Shown here in pieces: positions 495-60,171 of a DNA stretch of 64,000 nt. How positions within the stretch are numbered: the first letter of the stretch is position 1; each line of letters starts with the position of its first letter. The stretch is taken from assembly GCA_017396085.1 (NCBI GenBank), contig JAFQNC010000012.1, positions 1 through 64,000 on the forward strand, given 5' to 3'. The position numbers and the translations under genes were made by a program. The notes beneath the pieces are model-generated. The model searched no databases. It saw only the letters and a program-made list of their open reading frames with translations, and was not told the DNA's origin. Source of the DNA: Tidjanibacter sp. GTDB lineage: Bacteria > Bacteroidota > Bacteroidia > Bacteroidales > Rikenellaceae.

Positions 495-2513
495 ATGAAC
501 AAAGTTTTCCGATTCTTCACCCTATTGGTGGCAGCACTGACTCTCGGAGCGTGCGACCTCATCACCTTTGTCCCCATTGAGAGCACCGACCTTGACATTG
601 TCATCAACGAGGTAAACACCGATGCAAAGTACATCGAGCTCTACAATCGTAGCGAGCAGTCGGCCGACATCAGCGGTCTGACCATCATCAAGAACAACGA
701 GGGCCCCATCGCCAACATTGACGGCTCGGCCGATTTCGTGGTAGCCGAGGGCACCGTGCTCCCTGCCAAGGGGTTTGCGGTGATTGGTTGCAAGGGCAAC
801 ACCAACACCTACGAGGGTCTTTCGCTCGGCACCAGCAAGTCGGGCATCTCGGGCAGCAAGTCGCTCCTGCTGGAACTCGTAGACAAGGAGGGCAACCGCT
901 TGGACTACTTTGTGAACACCGCCACCGAAAACCCCACAGCCGAAGGCCCTTGGGATGGAGCCATCAACCAGTCCTTCGATGTTGCGGTGCGTATTCCCGA
1001 TGGCAGTACCTATTGGTACATCATTGAGGAGCCCACCCCCGGAGCGACCAATGGTGGCACTCTGGTGAGCAGTTTCAAGATGCCTGTGGTTAATTTCGAC
1101 TCTTCCGACAATGGCGAGGATGACAACCAGCAGGGCGGAGGCTCCACCACACCCGAAAACCCCGACCCGGGTACTTCCTCGTTGGCCCAGAGTGTGGCCT
1201 ACGTGTGGGACGAGAGCACCTTTCCCGAAATCACCCTCAAAGTGAGCGAGGATGAGTGGAACAGGATGCTTGCCACCTTTGACCAGAACAACGCCACCAA
1301 ACAATATTTCAAGGGTGATGTAACCTTCTTCAACGGCACCAAGACCTATGAGTTCAAGGAGGCCGGTTGGAGGTTGCGTGGCAACACCTCCCGCAGACGC
1401 CCCGAGGGTAACGGAGGCGAGGTACACCAGAAGGACAACGCCGATTGGCACCACTTCCACACCCAAATCAACTTCCGCAAGTTCCACAAGGACAACGACC
1501 ACACCATTGGTGGCGTAAGGAAAATACACCTCAAATGGTTCAAAGACGACCCCGCCTATGTGAGGGAGGTCTACTGCTACGACCTCTTCCGCCGCTATGG
1601 TGTGTGGACTGCCATCAACGACATCTACTGCCGCTTGTGGATACACGTTGAGGGCGACTCGCAGCCTGCCTACTATGGCGTCTACGAGATGCTCGAAACG
1701 GTTGATGATGAGTACCTTGAAGTGCGCTCCGACAAATTCGGAGGCCACAAGGGTAACCTCTGGAAGTGCTCCTACAACGCCAAGGGTAAGGCCGACCTGA
1801 AGGAGTACTCCGACAACAACAAGTTTGGCCTTGACCAAGACACCGATGAGGAGTGGCCCTATGAGCTCAAAACCGAGCACAACTCCTTTGAGTCGGCCAA
1901 AGCGCAGTTGGTGGACTTTATGCAGAAGCTCAACTCAAAGAGCGGTCAGGAATTGCACGATTGGTTGGGCGAGATTATGGACATTCCGCTCTTCCTTAGG
2001 ACCTATGCTGTGAACGTAACGGTTGGTATGTGGGACGACTACTGGAACAACGCCAACAACTACTATATGTACTTCAATGCCCCCGGCACAAGTGGCTACA
2101 AGTTCTACTTCATCCCCTACGACTACGACAACACCCTCGGCACCTCGCAGGCACTCTTCCGCCTGAGCGACTCGGGCCGCGACACTCCGCTCAAATGGGG
2201 TAGCAACGCCCAGCACCCGCTGGTGAACGCAGTCGTTCAGTTTGAGGACTACAAGGCCATCTACGTGGAATACCTCAAGGAGTTGGTGGACCCCACAAAG
2301 GGCTATTTTGACCAGACCACCAGCGTGGCCCGCATACGTGCTTGGCACAGCAAGATTGCCCCCTATGTGAGCAACGACACGGGCGAGGATATGTCCATAG
2401 AGGATAGGCCCGCCTCGTGGGGCAACCACGGAGAGTATAGGCTATTGGAGGATAGCAACAACAACTTCTTCAAAGTTAAGGCAGAGAGTTACCACAACCA
2501 CCTGAACTATTAA
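495..2513 (+). CDS. CotH kinase family lipoprotein with lamin-tail domain
   Basis: This is a predicted surface lipoprotein of 672 residues. I start at ATG 495 because it opens a standard lipoprotein signal peptide (hydrophobic stretch ending LTLGAC); the frame is open further upstream but without a signal. After the Cys comes a lamin-tail (LTD) domain at about residues 30-190, with the motif INEV...YIELYN. A Gly/Pro-rich linker follows, then a CotH domain from about residue 235 to the end (VSEDEWNRM, GWRLRGNTS, a DDYWNN region, FIPYDYDNTLG). CotH-family proteins are atypical protein kinases in Bacillus spores. Many Bacteroidota have lipoprotein versions with LTD domains whose substrates are unknown. 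The gene is monocistronic with its own promoter. The family call is firm; activity is inferred only from the family. Confidence 0.85.
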   Translation: MNKVFRFFTLLVAALTLGACDLITFVPIESTDLDIVINEVNTDAKYIELYNRSEQSADISGLTIIKNNEGPIANIDGSADFVVAEGTVLPAKGFAVIGCKGNTNTYEGLSLGTSKSGISGSKSLLLELVDKEGNRLDYFVNTATENPTAEGPWDGAINQSFDVAVRIPDGSTYWYIIEEPTPGATNGGTLVSSFKMPVVNFDSSDNGEDDNQQGGGSTTPENPDPGTSSLAQSVAYVWDESTFPEITLKVSEDEWNRMLATFDQNNATKQYFKGDVTFFNGTKTYEFKEAGWRLRGNTSRRRPEGNGGEVHQKDNADWHHFHTQINFRKFHKDNDHTIGGVRKIHLKWFKDDPAYVREVYCYDLFRRYGVWTAINDIYCRLWIHVEGDSQPAYYGVYEMLETVDDEYLEVRSDKFGGHKGNLWKCSYNAKGKADLKEYSDNNKFGLDQDTDEEWPYELKTEHNSFESAKAQLVDFMQKLNSKSGQELHDWLGEIMDIPLFLRTYAVNVTVGMWDDYWNNANNYYMYFNAPGTSGYKFYFIPYDYDNTLGTSQALFRLSDSGRDTPLKWGSNAQHPLVNAVVQFEDYKAIYVEYLKELVDPTKGYFDQTTSVARIRAWHSKIAPYVSNDTGEDMSIEDRPASWGNHGEYRLLEDSNNNFFKVKAESYHNHLNY

Positions 2514-2560
2514 AGAACAAGTGTTCTTGCCCCGTTACTGCTAAAAAAATAACAGAAATG

Positions 2561-2591
2561 TTTGCAGTGCGGAAAATAAAACATATCTTTG
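2561..2591 (+). promoter_or_regulatory. Promoter of gcvH
   Basis: TTTG at 2561-2564 and TATCTTTG at 2584-2591 are separated by 19 bp, an exact Bacteroidetes consensus promoter. It lies about 57 nt upstream of the gcvH start. Confidence 0.8.
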
Positions 2592-2647
2592 TGGATGGAT
2601 AACCTACAAGCAAACAATAAACTAACAAACATAACTCACATACTACT

Positions 2648-3025
2648 ATGAACATTCCGGCAGAATTGAGGTACTCAAAGGACCACGAGTGGATTAAGGT
2701 AATCGAAGGTGGCGAGGCATTGGTTGGCATTACCGACTTCGCACAGGGCGAACTTGGCGACATCGTTTTCGTTGATGTTCCCACCGTTGGCGAGAGCGTG
2801 GGTGCCCACGAGGTGTTCGGCTCCATTGAGGCCGTAAAGACCGTTAGCGATGTATTCCTCCCCGTTGGTGGCGAGATTCTTGAACTCAACCCCGAGGTGG
2901 ATGCAGACCCCTCGCTTGTGAACAAAGAGCCCTATGAGGGTGGTTGGCTTGTGCGCATCCGTATGGAGAACCCCGCCGAACTTGACGACCTGCTTGACGC
3001 AGAGGGCTATGCCGCAATGCTTTAG
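2648..3025 (+). CDS. gcvH: Glycine cleavage system H protein
   Basis: The 125-residue lipoyl carrier protein shuttles the aminomethyl group between the P, T and L proteins of the glycine cleavage system in the cytoplasm. The length is normal for the family. The lipoylation site is Lys64 in the context SIEAVKTVSD, and the N-terminal SKDHEWI motif is typical. Genes for GcvP and GcvT are not nearby, so H is encoded alone here, as often happens in Bacteroidota. It has an exact consensus promoter. The mdh gene follows after about 77 nt with no terminator visible between, so the two may be co-transcribed. Confidence 0.95.
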   Translation: MNIPAELRYSKDHEWIKVIEGGEALVGITDFAQGELGDIVFVDVPTVGESVGAHEVFGSIEAVKTVSDVFLPVGGEILELNPEVDADPSLVNKEPYEGGWLVRIRMENPAELDDLLDAEGYAAML

Positions 3026-3102
3026 TGGCAGCGGGCAAACCAAAAGCAAAAGACAAACATATTTTTTTACAAAACCATACACTAAAACACTTTTTTACAG
3101 AA

Positions 3103-4053
3103 ATGGCAACAAAAGTTACGGTAGTGGGCGCAGGTAATGTGGGCGCAACTGCTGCAAATGTGATGGCTATCCGCAAAGTTGCAAGCGAGATTTGCCTCAT
3201 CGACATCAAACCCGACCTCTCGGAGGGTAAAGTATTGGATATGTATCAGACCTCGACTCTGCTCGACTTCGATACCAAACTCGTGGGCGTAACCAACGAC
3301 TATAAGGCTACCGCCAAGAGTGATGTTGTGGTTATCACTTCGGGTGTGCCCCGCAAGCCCGGTATGACTCGCGAGGAGCTCATCGGCGTGAATGCCAACA
3401 TCGTGAAGTCGGTTGTAAACAACATCCTTCAGTACTCCCCCAAAGCAATCTTCGTGATTGTTTCCAACCCTATGGACACTATGGCTTATCTGACCCTGAA
3501 GTCCACCGGTCTGCCCAAAAACAGGGTTATCGGTATGGGTGGCGCACTCGATTCTTCGAGGTTCCGTTGCTACTTGGCAAAGGCTCTGAAAGCCGACATC
3601 CGCGATGTGGATGGTATGGTTATCGGTGGCCACGGCGACACCACAATGATTCCTCTCGTTGAGAAGGCAAGTTACCGTGGTGTGCCCGTTAGCCAGTTGC
3701 TCAGCAAGAAAAAATTGGAGGAGGTTGCTGCCGCCACAATGGTTGGTGGTGCCACTCTGACCAAACTGCTCGGCACTTCGGCTTGGTATGCTCCCGGTGC
3801 AGCCATCGCAAGCGTTGTGGAGAGCATCTTGGGCGACCAGAAGAGGGTTATCTCTTCGAGTTGCTACTTGGAGGGCGAGTATGGCGCAGAGGATTTGTTC
3901 ATCGGCGTTCCTGCTGTTATCGGCAAGAATGGTATCGAGAAGATTCTGCCCCTCAAACTCACTGCAACCGAGAAAGCTAAATTTGAGGCCAGCGTTGCAG
4001 CAGTGAAAAAGACCAACGAGGTACTCTACGAGATTGGCGCACTGACCAAATAG
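3103..4053 (+). CDS. mdh: Malate dehydrogenase
   Basis: NAD-dependent malate dehydrogenase, 316 residues, interconverting malate and oxaloacetate. I choose ATG 3103 because MATKVTVVGAGNVG is the canonical start of the Rossmann fold; an earlier in-frame GTG overlapping the gcvH stop would add 26 unlikely residues. Visible motifs are the NAD-binding GAGNVGA, the mobile-loop region GVPRKPGMTREEL with substrate-binding arginines, NPMDTMAYL, and the catalytic His in GGHGDTTM. It resembles the LDH-like MDH group of Bacteroidota and Chlorobi. A strong terminator follows 25 nt after the stop. Confidence 0.96.
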   Translation: MATKVTVVGAGNVGATAANVMAIRKVASEICLIDIKPDLSEGKVLDMYQTSTLLDFDTKLVGVTNDYKATAKSDVVVITSGVPRKPGMTREELIGVNANIVKSVVNNILQYSPKAIFVIVSNPMDTMAYLTLKSTGLPKNRVIGMGGALDSSRFRCYLAKALKADIRDVDGMVIGGHGDTTMIPLVEKASYRGVPVSQLLSKKKLEEVAAATMVGGATLTKLLGTSAWYAPGAAIASVVESILGDQKRVISSSCYLEGEYGAEDLFIGVPAVIGKNGIEKILPLKLTATEKAKFEASVAAVKKTNEVLYEIGALTK

Positions 4054-4190: not shown

Positions 4191-4871
4191 TTATCTTAAC
4201 ACGTATCCAACGCCTCTGACGCTCTCTATTTCTACGGTCGGGTCGGCCTTGAAATGGTTGCGCAGGCGTGTGATATAGACATTGAGGCTGCGGAGGTTAA
4301 AATAGTTATCATCGCCCCAAAGTTCCTTCAAGAGTTCCGATGCCTCAACAATACGCCCTCTCTTGCGGCACAACCTAACCAACACAGCTGCCTCTCGTGC
4401 CGCCAAGGTTGTATGCTGACCTCGTATGATTAGCTCCTTCGAAGATGGGTTAAACTCATATTCCCCTATAACATAAGATGTCTCTTGCGTATCCCTAACC
4501 TCGGCTCTTCCGGCCAAAGCCTTAACCCTTACGATGAGTTCATCGATGGCAAAAGGCTTTTTCAAGAAGTCGTTAGCTCCTGTTTCAAATCCCTTAACAA
4601 CATCCTCGGTTGCAGATAGTGCCGTAAGGAAAAGTATTGGAGTATTGCATCCCTCGTTTCTTAGCTTTTTCGCAAGAGAGTAGCCATCAAGATTGGGCAT
4701 CATCACATCGCTGACAATAACATCGAAAGGCTCCTTTTTTATGGCCTCCAATGCGTGGATTCCATCATACGCAAGACGAACATCGAAGTTCCTATCAGAT
4801 AGCGTATCTGATAGTATTTCGGCCAACATCTTTTCGTCTTCTACTAAAAGTATCTTTATTCTATTGTTCAT
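4191..4871 (-). CDS. OmpR-family response regulator
   Basis: 226 residues. The receiver domain (about 1-125) has acidic residues in LLVEDE, the phosphoacceptor Asp55 in VIVSDVMMP, a Thr in LFLTA, and Lys in FLKKPF. The C-terminal winged-helix DNA-binding domain (about 130-226) ends VRGVGYVLR, typical of the OmpR/PhoB class. Its start overlaps the 3' end of the histidine kinase gene by 11 nt, so the two are translationally coupled. The pair resembles RprX/RprY-type systems of Bacteroides, but orthology is not proven. The upstream TTAAC array is a likely binding site. The system is lower in GC than the surrounding housekeeping genes. Confidence 0.92.
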   Translation of the reverse strand: MNNRIKILLVEDEKMLAEILSDTLSDRNFDVRLAYDGIHALEAIKKEPFDVIVSDVMMPNLDGYSLAKKLRNEGCNTPILFLTALSATEDVVKGFETGANDFLKKPFAIDELIVRVKALAGRAEVRDTQETSYVIGEYEFNPSSKELIIRGQHTTLAAREAAVLVRLCRKRGRIVEASELLKELWGDDNYFNLRSLNVYITRLRNHFKADPTVEIESVRGVGYVLR

Positions 4872-6084
4872 TCTTAGGTAGTTTAATGGTTACGGTCGTA
4901 CCCTTGCCGACACTACTCTTAATCGATATTGTACCCTTGTGCAGCTGTACAACCTGCTTTGCATAATAGAGCCCCAATCCGTAACCTCTGACAGTGTGTA
5001 TATCACCAGTAGGTACGCGATAGAACTTCTCGAAAATATGCGAAAGGTGCTCTTTGGCTATGCCACATCCGTTGTCCGCCACATCTATCGTAACACTTCC
5101 ATTCTCATCAGAAACACTTACATTGACAACGGGCTCTTCGGCATATTTAACAGCGTTATCTATGACTGTCGCCAGAAGGTTTTTGATATGGAATTCATCT
5201 GCCAACACGGTAATGTTAGAAGGACAATCAATATGGAATTTTGGCTCCTTGCCTACATTCATTCCGGCACCTTGAACTACTCCATTGATAATATCATAAA
5301 TGTGTAGATTGGTAGGATTGTATCTATACTCTCTGCCCTCAACAGATACCGATAGTATATGTTCAACCATTGTCGATAGTTGGGTAAGTTGCGCCTCAAC
5401 AATCTCAAGGTAGCGACTTCTCCTTTCGGGATTGGCATCGGCAGAGAAATTACGCAGCGCATCAGTTGCTGTTACGGCAACTGAAATGGGCGTTTTCAGC
5501 TCGTGGGTTATATTGTGTGTAAAATCTCGCCTCATCTCTTCAAGGGTTTTCTGTCGAAACATAGTTCTTACCAAGTATAACAAGACGACCGACAATAGCA
5601 GGACAATAGCCACAGACGAAAGGATTAATCCCCGCATTCTCTCCAAAAATGCCTTAAACGGCGTTTCTATCGACAGCCTAAGCGAATATAGCTCGTCGTC
5701 ATCAATCGGCACAACGATAACCATCGGATTATTCAAACTCGGCCTTTCTCCTTTAGTCATCATCACTCGCGTAGTGCCAGCATCGTGAAATAACACCTCT
5801 GCATAATATGGCTGTAATGCATCAAGTTCCATCAGATTTGGCTCGAAGTAGAGGCTAAAATCATCAAGATTCATCTTAATATGGGTTGCGTTGGCCAAGC
5901 CGGGAATGGCATCCATACGGAATGCCTTATATATACTTTTGTATGTGGCAGACTCCACTCTGCGTTGGAAGTCAGACACGGAATCATTGTACATTCTATA
6001 CACCCATACAGCCTGCACCACTGCGAGGCATAGCAATGATGCCACAGCAATAATTGATATGTTTCGAAAGAATTTCTTTGACAT
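4861..6084 (-). CDS. Sensor histidine kinase (HisKA/HATPase)
   Basis: A membrane histidine kinase of 407 residues. TM1 is at about 9-30, a periplasmic sensor region at 31-152, TM2 at about 153-173, then the HisKA domain with the H-box HNITHELKTP (phospho-His194). The HATPase domain shows the N-box NLLATVIDNAVKYA, G1 DVADNGCGI and G2 GYGLGLYYAK. The periplasmic segment matches no domain I recognise. It is the first gene of a two-gene unit with the response regulator and is transcribed away from a small secreted plug-like protein, which is a candidate ligand or target. A TAnnTTTG box lies upstream at 6102-6109. Confidence 0.93.
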   Translation of the reverse strand: MSKKFFRNISIIAVASLLCLAVVQAVWVYRMYNDSVSDFQRRVESATYKSIYKAFRMDAIPGLANATHIKMNLDDFSLYFEPNLMELDALQPYYAEVLFHDAGTTRVMMTKGERPSLNNPMVIVVPIDDDELYSLRLSIETPFKAFLERMRGLILSSVAIVLLLSVVLLYLVRTMFRQKTLEEMRRDFTHNITHELKTPISVAVTATDALRNFSADANPERRSRYLEIVEAQLTQLSTMVEHILSVSVEGREYRYNPTNLHIYDIINGVVQGAGMNVGKEPKFHIDCPSNITVLADEFHIKNLLATVIDNAVKYAEEPVVNVSVSDENGSVTIDVADNGCGIAKEHLSHIFEKFYRVPTGDIHTVRGYGLGLYYAKQVVQLHKGTISIKSSVGKGTTVTIKLPKNEQ

Positions 6085-6101: not shown

Positions 6102-6109
6102 CAAAAGTA
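6102..6109 (-). promoter_or_regulatory. -7 element for the two-component operon
   Basis: Read on the minus strand, 6102-6109 is TACTTTTG, matching TAnnTTTG, 18 nt upstream of the kinase start. No good TTTG sits at the expected -33 position. The first TTAAC repeat (6137) begins just beyond it, which fits an activator-dependent promoter. Confidence 0.5.
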
Positions 6110-6136
6110 GTTATTATTTCTCATTCATAACACGAG

Positions 6137-6172
6137 TTAACATTAGTTAACAGTTATTAACAACCAGTTAAC
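6137..6172. promoter_or_regulatory. Four phased TTAAC repeats (putative response-regulator site)
   Basis: TTAAC occurs at 6137, 6147, 6157 and 6168, with spacings of 10, 10 and 11 bp, so all copies face the same side of the helix. OmpR-family regulators bind tandem direct repeats with this spacing. The array lies in the divergent spacer between the two-component operon and the plug-like gene and abuts both predicted promoters. Confidence 0.6.
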
Positions 6173-6194: not shown

Positions 6195-6202
6195 TATCTT
6201 TG
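6195..6202 (+). promoter_or_regulatory. -7 element for the plug-like protein gene
   Basis: TATCTTTG at 6195-6202 is a perfect -7 box. The expected -33 position is occupied by the last TTAAC repeat instead of TTTG, again suggesting dependence on a bound regulator. Confidence 0.55.
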
Positions 6203-6255: not shown

Positions 6256-6918
6256 ATGAAAAAGTTGTTTTTTATTTTCTTAATGAGCATTGCAACTAAC
6301 TTTGCATTTGCACAATCTGGTGAGGGACAAACTCTCTACATTATCGATGGAGTCTTGGCGACCAAAGCAGCAGTTGATGAATTGCCAAGCGATATGATTC
6401 GCAATATGAATGTTGTCAAAGGTGTAGAGTCAGTGGTTATCATCACTACCCAAAATGGTAGAGAAATTTCTGGACGAGTTGTCGATACCGAGGAAAAGCC
6501 TATGGCCGGAGTGCTTGTAATGGTGCCAAAGACCAAAGCAGGCGTTGCAACAGATGCCAATGGATATTACAAGATTAATCTTGCAGCTGGCGAGGCTTTC
6601 CTCCAATATATGTATGTAGATTATCCTACAATAACCGTTCAAGTTGACAAGGCTAATATGGACGATGTTGTTATGGATAAGAACGCTCGGCCGAATACTG
6701 TCGTGGTTAAGGATGTCAGCACACCAAGCGACCCTGCGGCTGGCAAACCTCTTTGCGTTATCAAAAAGTCTAATGGTAACCTTTATGTGGGTGATATGAA
6801 ATCTATCTCTCCTAATGATATAAAGACTATGCACGTGTTTAAGGGAGGAGAACAAGCAGAGGCATACAAGAAATATGGCGACACATCCAATGGAGTAATT
6901 CTGATTGAGCTGAAGTAG
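6256..6918 (+). CDS. Secreted protein with two TonB-plug-like motifs and a CarboxypepD_reg-like domain
   Basis: 220 residues, started at ATG 6256 because it opens a clean signal peptide (MKKLFFIFLM... ending FAFAQ). An upstream in-frame start would add 11 residues before it. The mature protein has three parts. First is a plug-like segment (TLYIIDGV...MNVVKGVESVVIITTQNG). Second is a carboxypeptidase-regulatory-like fold (ISGRVVDTEEKPMAGVLVMVP...TDANGYYKI). Third is another plug-like segment ending HVFKGGEQAEAYKKYGDTSNGVILIELK. SusC-type receptors and some M56/BlaR-like peptidases carry such segments, but there is no barrel here. The first plug-like copy lacks the KYG part. It faces the sensor kinase gene across the TTAAC array, so it may be its regulon member or periplasmic partner. 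Function is unknown. Confidence 0.7.
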   Translation: MKKLFFIFLMSIATNFAFAQSGEGQTLYIIDGVLATKAAVDELPSDMIRNMNVVKGVESVVIITTQNGREISGRVVDTEEKPMAGVLVMVPKTKAGVATDANGYYKINLAAGEAFLQYMYVDYPTITVQVDKANMDDVVMDKNARPNTVVVKDVSTPSDPAAGKPLCVIKKSNGNLYVGDMKSISPNDIKTMHVFKGGEQAEAYKKYGDTSNGVILIELK

Positions 6919-6928
6919 TCTGCAAATC

Positions 6929-6983
6929 ACCCCCCTCCCTTGCATTTTCCTTTCCGAAAATTTGGAAAATTCGTGGGGGGGGT
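6929..6983. repeat. C6/G8 two-tier inverted repeat overlapping a promoter
   Basis: ACCCCCC (6929-6935) can pair with GGGGGGT (6977-6983), and inside it TTTTCC (6945-6950) pairs with GGAAAA (6964-6969). It lies between the plug-like gene and the next lipoprotein gene and includes a run of eight G (6975-6982) in the promoter spacer. It could end the upstream transcript, but no T-run follows. Confidence 0.45.
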
Positions 6984-6990
6984 AACTTTG
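6961..6990 (+). promoter_or_regulatory. Promoter with G8 homopolymer in its spacer
   Basis: TTTG (6961-6964) and TAACTTTG (6983-6990) are separated by 18 bp, of which the last eight are G (6975-6982). The spacing is at the short edge of the usual 19-21 bp, so tract-length changes would alter promoter geometry. Confidence 0.55.
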
Positions 6991-7016: not shown

Positions 7017-7409
7017 ATGAAAACACTAAGAAATCTATTGATGTGCGCGGTGATGCTTTTCGCAGTCGGCTGCGATGAGGAAGAAACCTTTGATGTTACA
7101 CCACAAACTCTTGCTCAAACTGTATGGGATGCGGAGATTGAATATTTTGATGAAAACGGCAACGCAACAGGTAACAATAGTTGTATTGTAGAATTTCTAT
7201 CCGAGACAGAGGGTAAATACAGCGAGCCTGATATGAATACCGTGCGCCAATTCACCTATGAGGTAGATAGAGCAATTATTGTTATCGATAGCGGCATCTA
7301 CACTCTTTTGAATGGAACGTGGCATATTGTAGAGAAATCGGAACAGCAAATCCTCCTGCAAGGCTATGGCCCAAACAAGGTACTGATAACATTGGATAGA
7401 GTGCTATAA
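7017..7409 (+). CDS. Small lipoprotein of unknown function
   Basis: 130 residues. Translation is taken from ATG 7017, giving a lipoprotein signal (MKTLRNLLMCAVMLFAVGC); an in-frame extension of nine residues upstream is unlikely. The mature part starts with acidic residues, then a predicted all-beta region (VWDAEIEYFDENG, CIVEFLSETEGKY, FTYEVDRAIIVI, LNGTWHIVEKSEQQILLQGYG). This pattern resembles lipocalin-like small lipoproteins of Bacteroidota, but I recognise no family with certainty. It has its own predicted promoter, and a hairpin shared with the convergent catalase gene follows. Confidence 0.6.
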   Translation: MKTLRNLLMCAVMLFAVGCDEEETFDVTPQTLAQTVWDAEIEYFDENGNATGNNSCIVEFLSETEGKYSEPDMNTVRQFTYEVDRAIIVIDSGIYTLLNGTWHIVEKSEQQILLQGYGPNKVLITLDRVL

Positions 7410-60029: not shown

Positions 60030-60081
60030 CACTCCTCCCGAAGGGCAAACATCACACTCCCTAAGCTCCTTAAAGCCCAGC

Positions 60082-60125
60082 CCTTAAAGTCCTTAAAGTC
60101 CTTAAAGTCCTTAAAGTCCTTAAGG
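60082..60125 (+). repeat. 9-bp tandem repeat (CCTTAAAGT)
   Basis: Four perfect tandem copies of CCTTAAAGT (60082-60117) and a partial fifth (CCTTAAGG, 60118-60125) lie in the 230-nt spacer between the M23 gene and glnA. A degenerate copy precedes them at 60068-60075. Copy number may vary between strains. Confidence 0.9.
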
Positions 60126-60171
60126 CCCTTATTGACTGGCAACAAGAATCGGATGAGTTCACAAGGCACAC

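Follow-up and report, generated by a model that had tools for sequence, protein, structure and literature searches.

A phased TTAAC repeat array between two divergent promoters as the probable operator of an OmpR-family two-component system in Rikenellaceae

Introduction

The closest described counterparts of the regulatory site analyzed here come from Escherichia coli and from the Bacteroidota. E. coli ArcA recognizes sites in which three to five direct repeats follow one another at 11 bp, according to the available part of the published description (PMC3798270). For PhoP of Riemerella anatipestifer, DAP-seq yielded the motif TTTAACA, which resembles that of ArcA, and 583 peaks genome-wide; PhoP binds upstream of its own operon, and its targets comprise GLPGLI, outer-membrane β-barrel, and TonB-dependent receptor genes (PMC9603813). 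The parts of that paper available to us do not describe repeat number, spacing, or the register to a −7 box. In Porphyromonas gingivalis, RprY binds its own promoter by EMSA (PMC3646045), and the regulator of the PG0719/PG0720 pair (HaeSR) also binds its own promoter, its loss changing GLPGLI genes (PMC3764172, PMC8757827). No binding motif is described for RprXY in the available portions of PMC3646045 and PMC6032018, nor a repeat motif for HaeSR in those of PMC3764172 and PMC8757827. Our literature search gave one published binding motif for a comparable Bacteroidota regulator, that of Riemerella PhoP.

Here, we analyze a 64,000-nucleotide stretch of DNA from Tidjanibacter sp. (referred to as the window), in which four TTAAC repeats lie between the genes of a two-component system and a divergently oriented gene. 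No prior description of this array, of its −7 register, or of its spread was found in the literature searched, which was thin for subscription journals.

Results

Genes flanking the spacer

The array is located in a 171-bp spacer flanked by the following genes:

4191..4871, minus strand: OmpR-family response regulator with Response_reg and Trans_reg_C domains (Pfam), overlapping the kinase gene by 11 bp
4861..6084, minus strand: sensor histidine kinase with HisKA and HATPase_c domains (Pfam) and two membrane spans recognized by eye
6256..6918, plus strand: divergent gene and proposed target; its product is small and secreted, with a CarboxypepD_reg-like domain between two plug-like stretches

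The best NCBIfam match of the regulator is RprY (NF051850), at 218.4 bits. This is below the equivalog cut-off of 370, which rules out naming the protein RprY, and function can therefore not be borrowed from RprY. Among 10 relatives scanned, only L088 passed this cut-off. The plug likeness of the divergent protein rests on visual inspection and on a Pfam match below threshold. Its structure model has a mean pLDDT of 72 and a pTM of 0.41, and the best Foldseek match is the SusC N-terminal-extension domain (9hfj, TM 0.85 on the target), a match that fits the Pfam call and is silent on the function of the protein.

Further along the plus strand, the stretch that separates the divergent gene from its downstream neighbor (6925-6985) holds a C run and a G run about 40 bp apart (CCCCCCTCCC ... 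GGGGGGGG), followed by a −7-like box, TAACTTTG. The gene that comes next (7017-7409, plus strand) resembles the BSAP-5i immunity family (NF053773; 64.2 bits, cut-off 150). A similar-looking small lipoprotein, as judged by eye, is found in L173 and L174, next to TTAAC repeats that lack promoter geometry.

A phased array of TTAAC repeats

Direct reading of the plus strand bore out the four TTAAC positions and the 10/10/11-bp spacing given in the first-pass annotation, with units starting at 6137, 6147, 6157, and 6168 (steps of 10, 10, and 11 bp):

6137..6172, plus strand: TTAAC direct-repeat array of four units, the proposed operator, identified from sequence, genome scan, shuffles, and relatives
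6137..6141, plus strand: U1, TTAACATTAG, the unit nearest the kinase promoter; no variation at its five positions across 13 nonredundant spacers, partly built in for both U1 and U2 by a search form that demanded two TTAAC at 10 bp
6147..6151, plus strand: U2, TTAACAGTTA; five positions invariant in 13 nonredundant spacers, with the same proviso
6157..6161, plus strand: U3, TTAACAACCA; 1.6–2.0 bits per position, missing from L043 and L044
6168..6172, plus strand: U4, TTAAC in the window, proximal to the divergent promoter; 0.9–2.0 bits per position
6127..6131, plus strand: ATAAC, perhaps a weak fifth unit, 10 bp ahead of U1 and within the kinase promoter's −33 zone

No four-unit phased chain (steps of 9–12 bp) arose when the 171-bp spacer was dinucleotide-shuffled 20,000 times; the longest chain had three units and was seen in three shuffles. 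In 200 shuffles of the window, the longest TTAAC chain had two units. TTAAC is rarer in the 64-kb window than expected (64 found vs 99 in shuffles), and since it is not over-represented, the array is a local feature. A genome scan for the repeat pattern, proposed with the original annotation, located the strict three-unit form TTAAC-N4-6-TTAAC-N4-6-TTAAC a single time in the 2,020,692-base genome, at the array. No second operator emerged above the control count when this genome was scanned with looser forms: TTAAC-N5-6-TTAAC gave eight matches (five in the reversed control), four of them inside the array and four outside it without a −7 box in register, and TTAAC-N32-33-TAnnTTTG gave two matches (one in the control), one being the array.

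Three of the four units in the window read as the palindrome GTTAAC. Relatives retain only the directional TTAACAnT and not the palindrome, so that direct repeats are the conserved reading. Judged from sequence comparison, the array is a selected element and very probably a real operator, to which a regulator would bind.

Two promoters without a −33 box

A −7 box was found on each side of the array:

6195..6202, plus strand: −7 box of the divergent gene, TATCTTTG, 27 bp after the start of U4
6102..6109, minus strand: −7 box of the kinase-regulator operon, TACTTTTG, 28 bp before U1

Promoter numbering is borrowed from Flavobacterium, for which the available part of PMC9723704 maps TAnnTTTG at −12..−5. 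Good −7 boxes and poor −33 boxes had been annotated for both directions, and this description holds, since TTG is absent from −36..−30 of both promoters (ACTCACA and GTGTTAT) while both −7 boxes are present. The array had moreover been placed in the −33 zone of each promoter, and the proximal units do lie in or next to that zone, with U4 covering about −39..−35 of the divergent gene and U1 about −44..−40 of the kinase operon. The proximal unit is 5 bp further away on the kinase side than on the divergent side. On this numbering, transcription is predicted to start at about 6207 (plus strand) and 6097 (minus strand). In terms of position, this is the layout of class II activation, with an array that abuts or overlaps the −33 zone of promoters lacking that box, at fixed distances of 27 and 28 bp. 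A scan for E. coli-type promoters gave one match, at shuffle level.

Conservation of the array and its promoter register

Relatives were chosen by the kinase alone, which gave 17 full-length loci with kinase identities of 33–98% and an available spacer (L004, L005, L006, L033-L044, L046, and L047; L045 was left out because it shares its contig with L005). Among named relatives, Alistipes assemblies of ruminant-gut origin (L033 and L034) are the closest, with kinases 98% identical. Phased TTAAC repeats stand upstream of the kinase in all 17 loci, and in 15 of these there are three exact units in 10-10 register directly upstream of it; L043 and L044 have two units, the third and fourth being gone with the −7 distances unchanged. 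Both −7 boxes are in register in 17/17 relatives, as they are in the window. The divergent-side box lies 27 bp from the start of the fourth slot (26 bp in two relatives; a one-off box at 27 bp in another two), and the kinase-side box is found 28–30 bp before the first unit. The first-pass annotation had staked its proposal on the phased repeats being conserved together with the flanking genes, and they are: every one of the 17 kinase-selected relatives keeps TTAAC and both −7 boxes, and the opposite case, flanking genes conserved and phased repeats lost, is absent.

In 13 nonredundant gapless rows, the flanks average 0.5 and 0.4 bits per position, compared with the much higher values given for U3 and U4 above, and the consensus reads G-TTAAC-AnTnn-TTAAC-AnTTn-TTAAC-nnnnnG-TTnAC, followed by TATnTTTGC at 27 bp. 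U4 is exact in the window and degenerate (TTnAC and others) in many relatives. Five-unit chains are present in L033 and L034, and the weak extra unit is absent from most relatives. The orientation of the units is kept in relatives, as in direct repeats, and the spacing of about one helical turn (10-10-11 bp) is found in the window and in relatives alike.

Directly beside the orthologous system, L037 holds a second regulator gene (1901-2593) and a second TTAAC array (L037:217-241), whose kinase-side −7 box is 28 bp away.

A wider set comprised 33 loci, 16 of which the array pattern itself had brought in, and 25 of which remained once near copies were set aside. Among these 25, the divergent-side box lies at 27 bp in 20 loci and at 26 bp in 3, with a one-off box at 27 bp in 2, and the kinase-side box lies at 28 bp in 18, 29 bp in 5, and 30 bp in 2.

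Co-occurrence with the kinase and arrays elsewhere

We then considered the family as a whole. The strict array TTAAC-N5-TTAAC-N5-TTAAC is present in 48 of 268 Rikenellaceae genomes. A kinase match at E ≤ 1e-80, a threshold fixed after the list was seen, was obtained in 36 of the 268, and all 36 carry the strict array, as do 12 of the 232 genomes without such a kinase. An OmpR-family regulator is present at the locus, in addition to this 36/36 co-occurrence of kinase and array. Comparison of coordinates placed the array directly upstream of the E ≤ 1e-80 kinase in 31 of the 36 genomes. In G196, G207, G236, and G238, the strict array is found not at the closest kinase but near a second, more distant one; G107 has a partial kinase, and its arrays are elsewhere, close to the ends of contigs. 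As to the 12 genomes, the kinase match is weaker in four (G025, G287, G288, and G289; E 6e-80 to 9e-70) and remote or lacking in the other eight. Each site read in these eight genomes was a minisatellite-like or odd repeat with no −7 box in register (one locus each was read in G126, G127, G132, G135, G139, and G146, and G126 has 14 listed sites).

Arrays located away from the kinase differ in the boxes that accompany them. An exact divergent-type box at 26–27 bp is the only one in L143, L147, L146, the second L150 array, L151, L152, L158, L171, and L172, and a one-off divergent-type box is found in L160, L161, L163, L164, L165, and L168. L166 and L169 have an exact kinase-type box at 30 bp and no divergent-type box, and neither type accompanies L144, L170, L173, L174, L175, or the minisatellites. 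The divergent-type arrays adjoin genes for thioredoxin/DUF4369 lipoproteins, PepSY/plug-like proteins, and OMP_b-brl_3 proteins; in L166 and L169, with no kinase nearby, it is the kinase-type end that faces OMP_b-brl_3 genes. Because off-kinase arrays carry one geometry alone, the two ends of the array resemble separate promoter modules.

A paralogous system with 10-12-10 spacing

TTAAC arrays spaced 10-12-10 accompany a second kinase family, which matches the query at E values of about 1e-60 to 1e-76. We found 46 such arrays in 36 of the 268 genomes and none in the reversed control; 29 of the 46 lie 50–567 bp upstream of a listed kinase, in all 29 cases on the opposite strand. Based on 30 loci, the divergent-side box is 37 bp from the last unit in 23 and 38 bp in 6, and the commonest kinase-side distance is 39 bp (17 loci). 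In the window, the divergent box lies 38 bp from U3, which means that the last strong unit is at about the same place in both systems. When the spacing was mapped on a 72-regulator tree, 4 changes accounted for the 10-12-10 label, which 22 rows carry (shuffled mean 18.9, with 0/500 as low), and by this measure array spacing follows regulator phylogeny. Three genomes (G114, G167, and G170) hold both kinds of array at their kinases, and each kinase adjoins its own pattern.

One idea is that spacing acts as a code, that is, that the two paralogous Rikenellaceae systems, with the same TTAAC and nearly the same recognition helix, are insulated mainly by 10-10-11 vs 10-12-10 spacing, in which case dimers would start 20 bp or 22 bp apart, respectively. 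If true, this would be a simple way for paralogous two-component systems to stay insulated. We regard the idea as rather doubtful. The two kinds also differ in their linker bases (TTAACATT vs TTAACACT type). Among Bacteroides and Prevotella relatives, a single regulator clade contains both spacings, as does one spacer (L050), so that spacing is not a universal code.

Exchange of target genes and spread beyond the family

The gene facing the kinase varies while the promoter frame stays. Close relatives have CarboxypepD_reg/plug-like proteins in this position, and L006 and L047 have GLPGLI (Porph_ging) proteins. In L004, a peptidase S51 protein (2162-3262, plus strand) replaces the divergent gene with the array and the −7 register unchanged; L005, of the same genus, retains a plug-like divergent protein. 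Out of 66 divergent frames, we took those from Bacteroidales loci and L112, omitting near copies, and with the protein of the window obtained 33 divergent proteins, among which OMP_b-brl_3 (11), Plug (8), Porph_ging (6), and CarbopepD_reg_2 (5) domains were found.

For comparison across larger distances, chains of TAA[CG] units were counted, excluding L093, whose spacer was not available. Chains of at least three units occur upstream of the kinase in 15 of 19 Rikenellaceae loci and in 7 of 18 loci from other Bacteroidales, 10 of these 18 reaching p < 0.05 by shuffling. At 42 loci from other Bacteroidota, a pair or more is found on the array strand in 29 and on the opposite strand in 2, in a set where per-locus p values are mostly 0.05–0.2 and many rows are related. 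The unit reads TAAGACT/TAACACT in Bacteroides and Prevotella. L050 (Bacteroides clarus) has six TAA[CG] units upstream of the kinase at 10-12-10-10-11 bp, as if both types of array were joined. In Chitinophagaceae loci, TTTAAC pairs are conserved at 11 bp; these loci give weak support, because a regulator was not found beside most of the kinases and many loci are near copies.

Discussion

Taken together, these data make it likely that the cognate OmpR-family regulator (4191-4871) uses the array as an operator of four units and controls two divergent promoters that lack a −33 box. The suggestion that an OmpR-family regulator binds the tandem repeats, made from the sequence at the outset, is supported by the Pfam domains, the co-occurrence of kinase and array, the match between spacing and phylogeny, and precedents in the available parts of PMC3798270 and PMC9603813. 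In the mechanism we propose, phosphorylated regulator molecules would occupy the units in a head-to-tail row, with one molecule for each helical turn and probably as two dimers (U1–U2 and U3–U4). The filled array would end beside two −7-only promoters, at which the regulator would replace the absent −33 contact, switching on the divergent envelope-protein gene in a class II-type manner and feeding back on its own kinase-regulator operon.

The array itself, its conservation, the constant distances to both −7 boxes, its co-occurrence with the kinase, and the fit of its spacing to regulator phylogeny are observed here. We infer that the regulator binds the array, that phosphorylation matters, and that activation goes in both directions; for the divergent gene, activation is suggested by the class II-like position of the array. 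Feedback on the kinase-regulator operon is likely, with a sign that could go either way because the kinase promoter sees the other end of the array. Given the opposite array ends and the extra 5 bp, one activation contact cannot simply serve both promoters, and the data also allow for the kinase operon being repressed or receiving weak feedback.

The main alternative, which we consider somewhat unlikely, retains the same operator and regulator and assumes that the divergent gene is activated and the kinase-regulator operon repressed or unaffected. Such an asymmetric logic would agree with the geometry, in which the proximal unit lies at −39..−35 of the divergent gene vs −44..−40, and inverted, for the kinase operon, and with P. 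gingivalis RprY, which binds its own promoter and was suggested by its authors to be, maybe, a repressor (available part of PMC3646045). However, the kinase-side geometry occurs alone at OMP_b-brl_3 genes without a nearby kinase (L166 and L169), and a purely repressed promoter without a −33 box would presumably be unusual. It is improbable that the array is bound not by the neighboring regulator but by a different OmpR-family protein, global, RprY-like, and encoded elsewhere. The recognition-helix regions are almost identical across relatives in this regulator family, and TTAAC-type direct repeats are also found upstream of related kinases without an adjacent regulator, both of which would suit such a protein; yet, among the genomes read, arrays with promoter geometry are confined to those that hold the kinase, and spacing tracks the phylogeny of the adjacent regulator.

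Two further readings have very little to recommend them. Rikenellaceae genomes do contain 10-bp TTAAC-containing minisatellites (G126, G127, G132, and G139), and the window has another 10-bp repeat between genes (about five copies of CCTTAAAGTC, 60063-60130), so one could imagine that a 10-bp minisatellite lies in the spacer by chance. This is contradicted by the array, which does not consist of near-identical units in variable copy number: the linkers differ, nearly all relatives have a fixed number of three to four copies, and both −7 distances are preserved, whereas no −7 box stands in register in the minisatellites sampled. The other reading, just as hard to credit, takes the GTTAAC found in three of the four window units as palindromic sites for a dimeric repressor of another family. 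In relatives, however, the leading G varies (C, A, or T) while the A and T after TTAAC are kept at 2.0 bits each (U1 and U2), and TAA[CG] chains in other Bacteroidota keep one orientation to the kinase (29/42 vs 2/42), a conserved directionality that contradicts palindromic sites.

The sensor, the regulator, the likely operator, and the promoter geometry follow here from comparison alone, and the rule that an array is followed, after 26–27 or 28–30 bp, by TAnnTTTG predicts targets in other genomes, the predicted classes being outer-membrane barrels, GLPGLI proteins, and thioredoxin-like lipoproteins.

Comparison with known systems

The following comparisons are with the published descriptions as far as available. 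With ArcA, the system shares an OmpR/PhoB-family regulator and more than two direct repeats one helical turn apart. It differs from ArcA in belonging to another phylum, in its spacing (10-10-11 bp in the window, mainly 11 bp for ArcA), and in having one operator between two −7-only Bacteroidota promoters at fixed distances. Riemerella PhoP is likewise an OmpR-family regulator from the Bacteroidota; the core TTAACA is shared, and its target classes are those of the divergent genes in relatives. In the window, TTAACA is common to U1–U3, the preceding base being G, G, and A (often T in the 10-12-10 arrays). Unlike PhoP, with its 583 peaks, the array has one strict site in this genome. The likeness to RprXY of Bacteroides and Porphyromonas (PMC3646045, PMC6032018) lies in RprY being the best NCBIfam match of the regulator, and that to HaeSR (PMC3764172, PMC8757827) in its being a kinase-regulator pair from the Bacteroidales. 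Multi-repeat sites of OmpR-family regulators (ArcA) and the TTTAACA motif (Riemerella PhoP) are already published, so the kind of element is known. What is new is the geometry-locked bidirectional promoter, its spread in Bacteroidales with swapped targets, and the paralogous system at 10-12-10.
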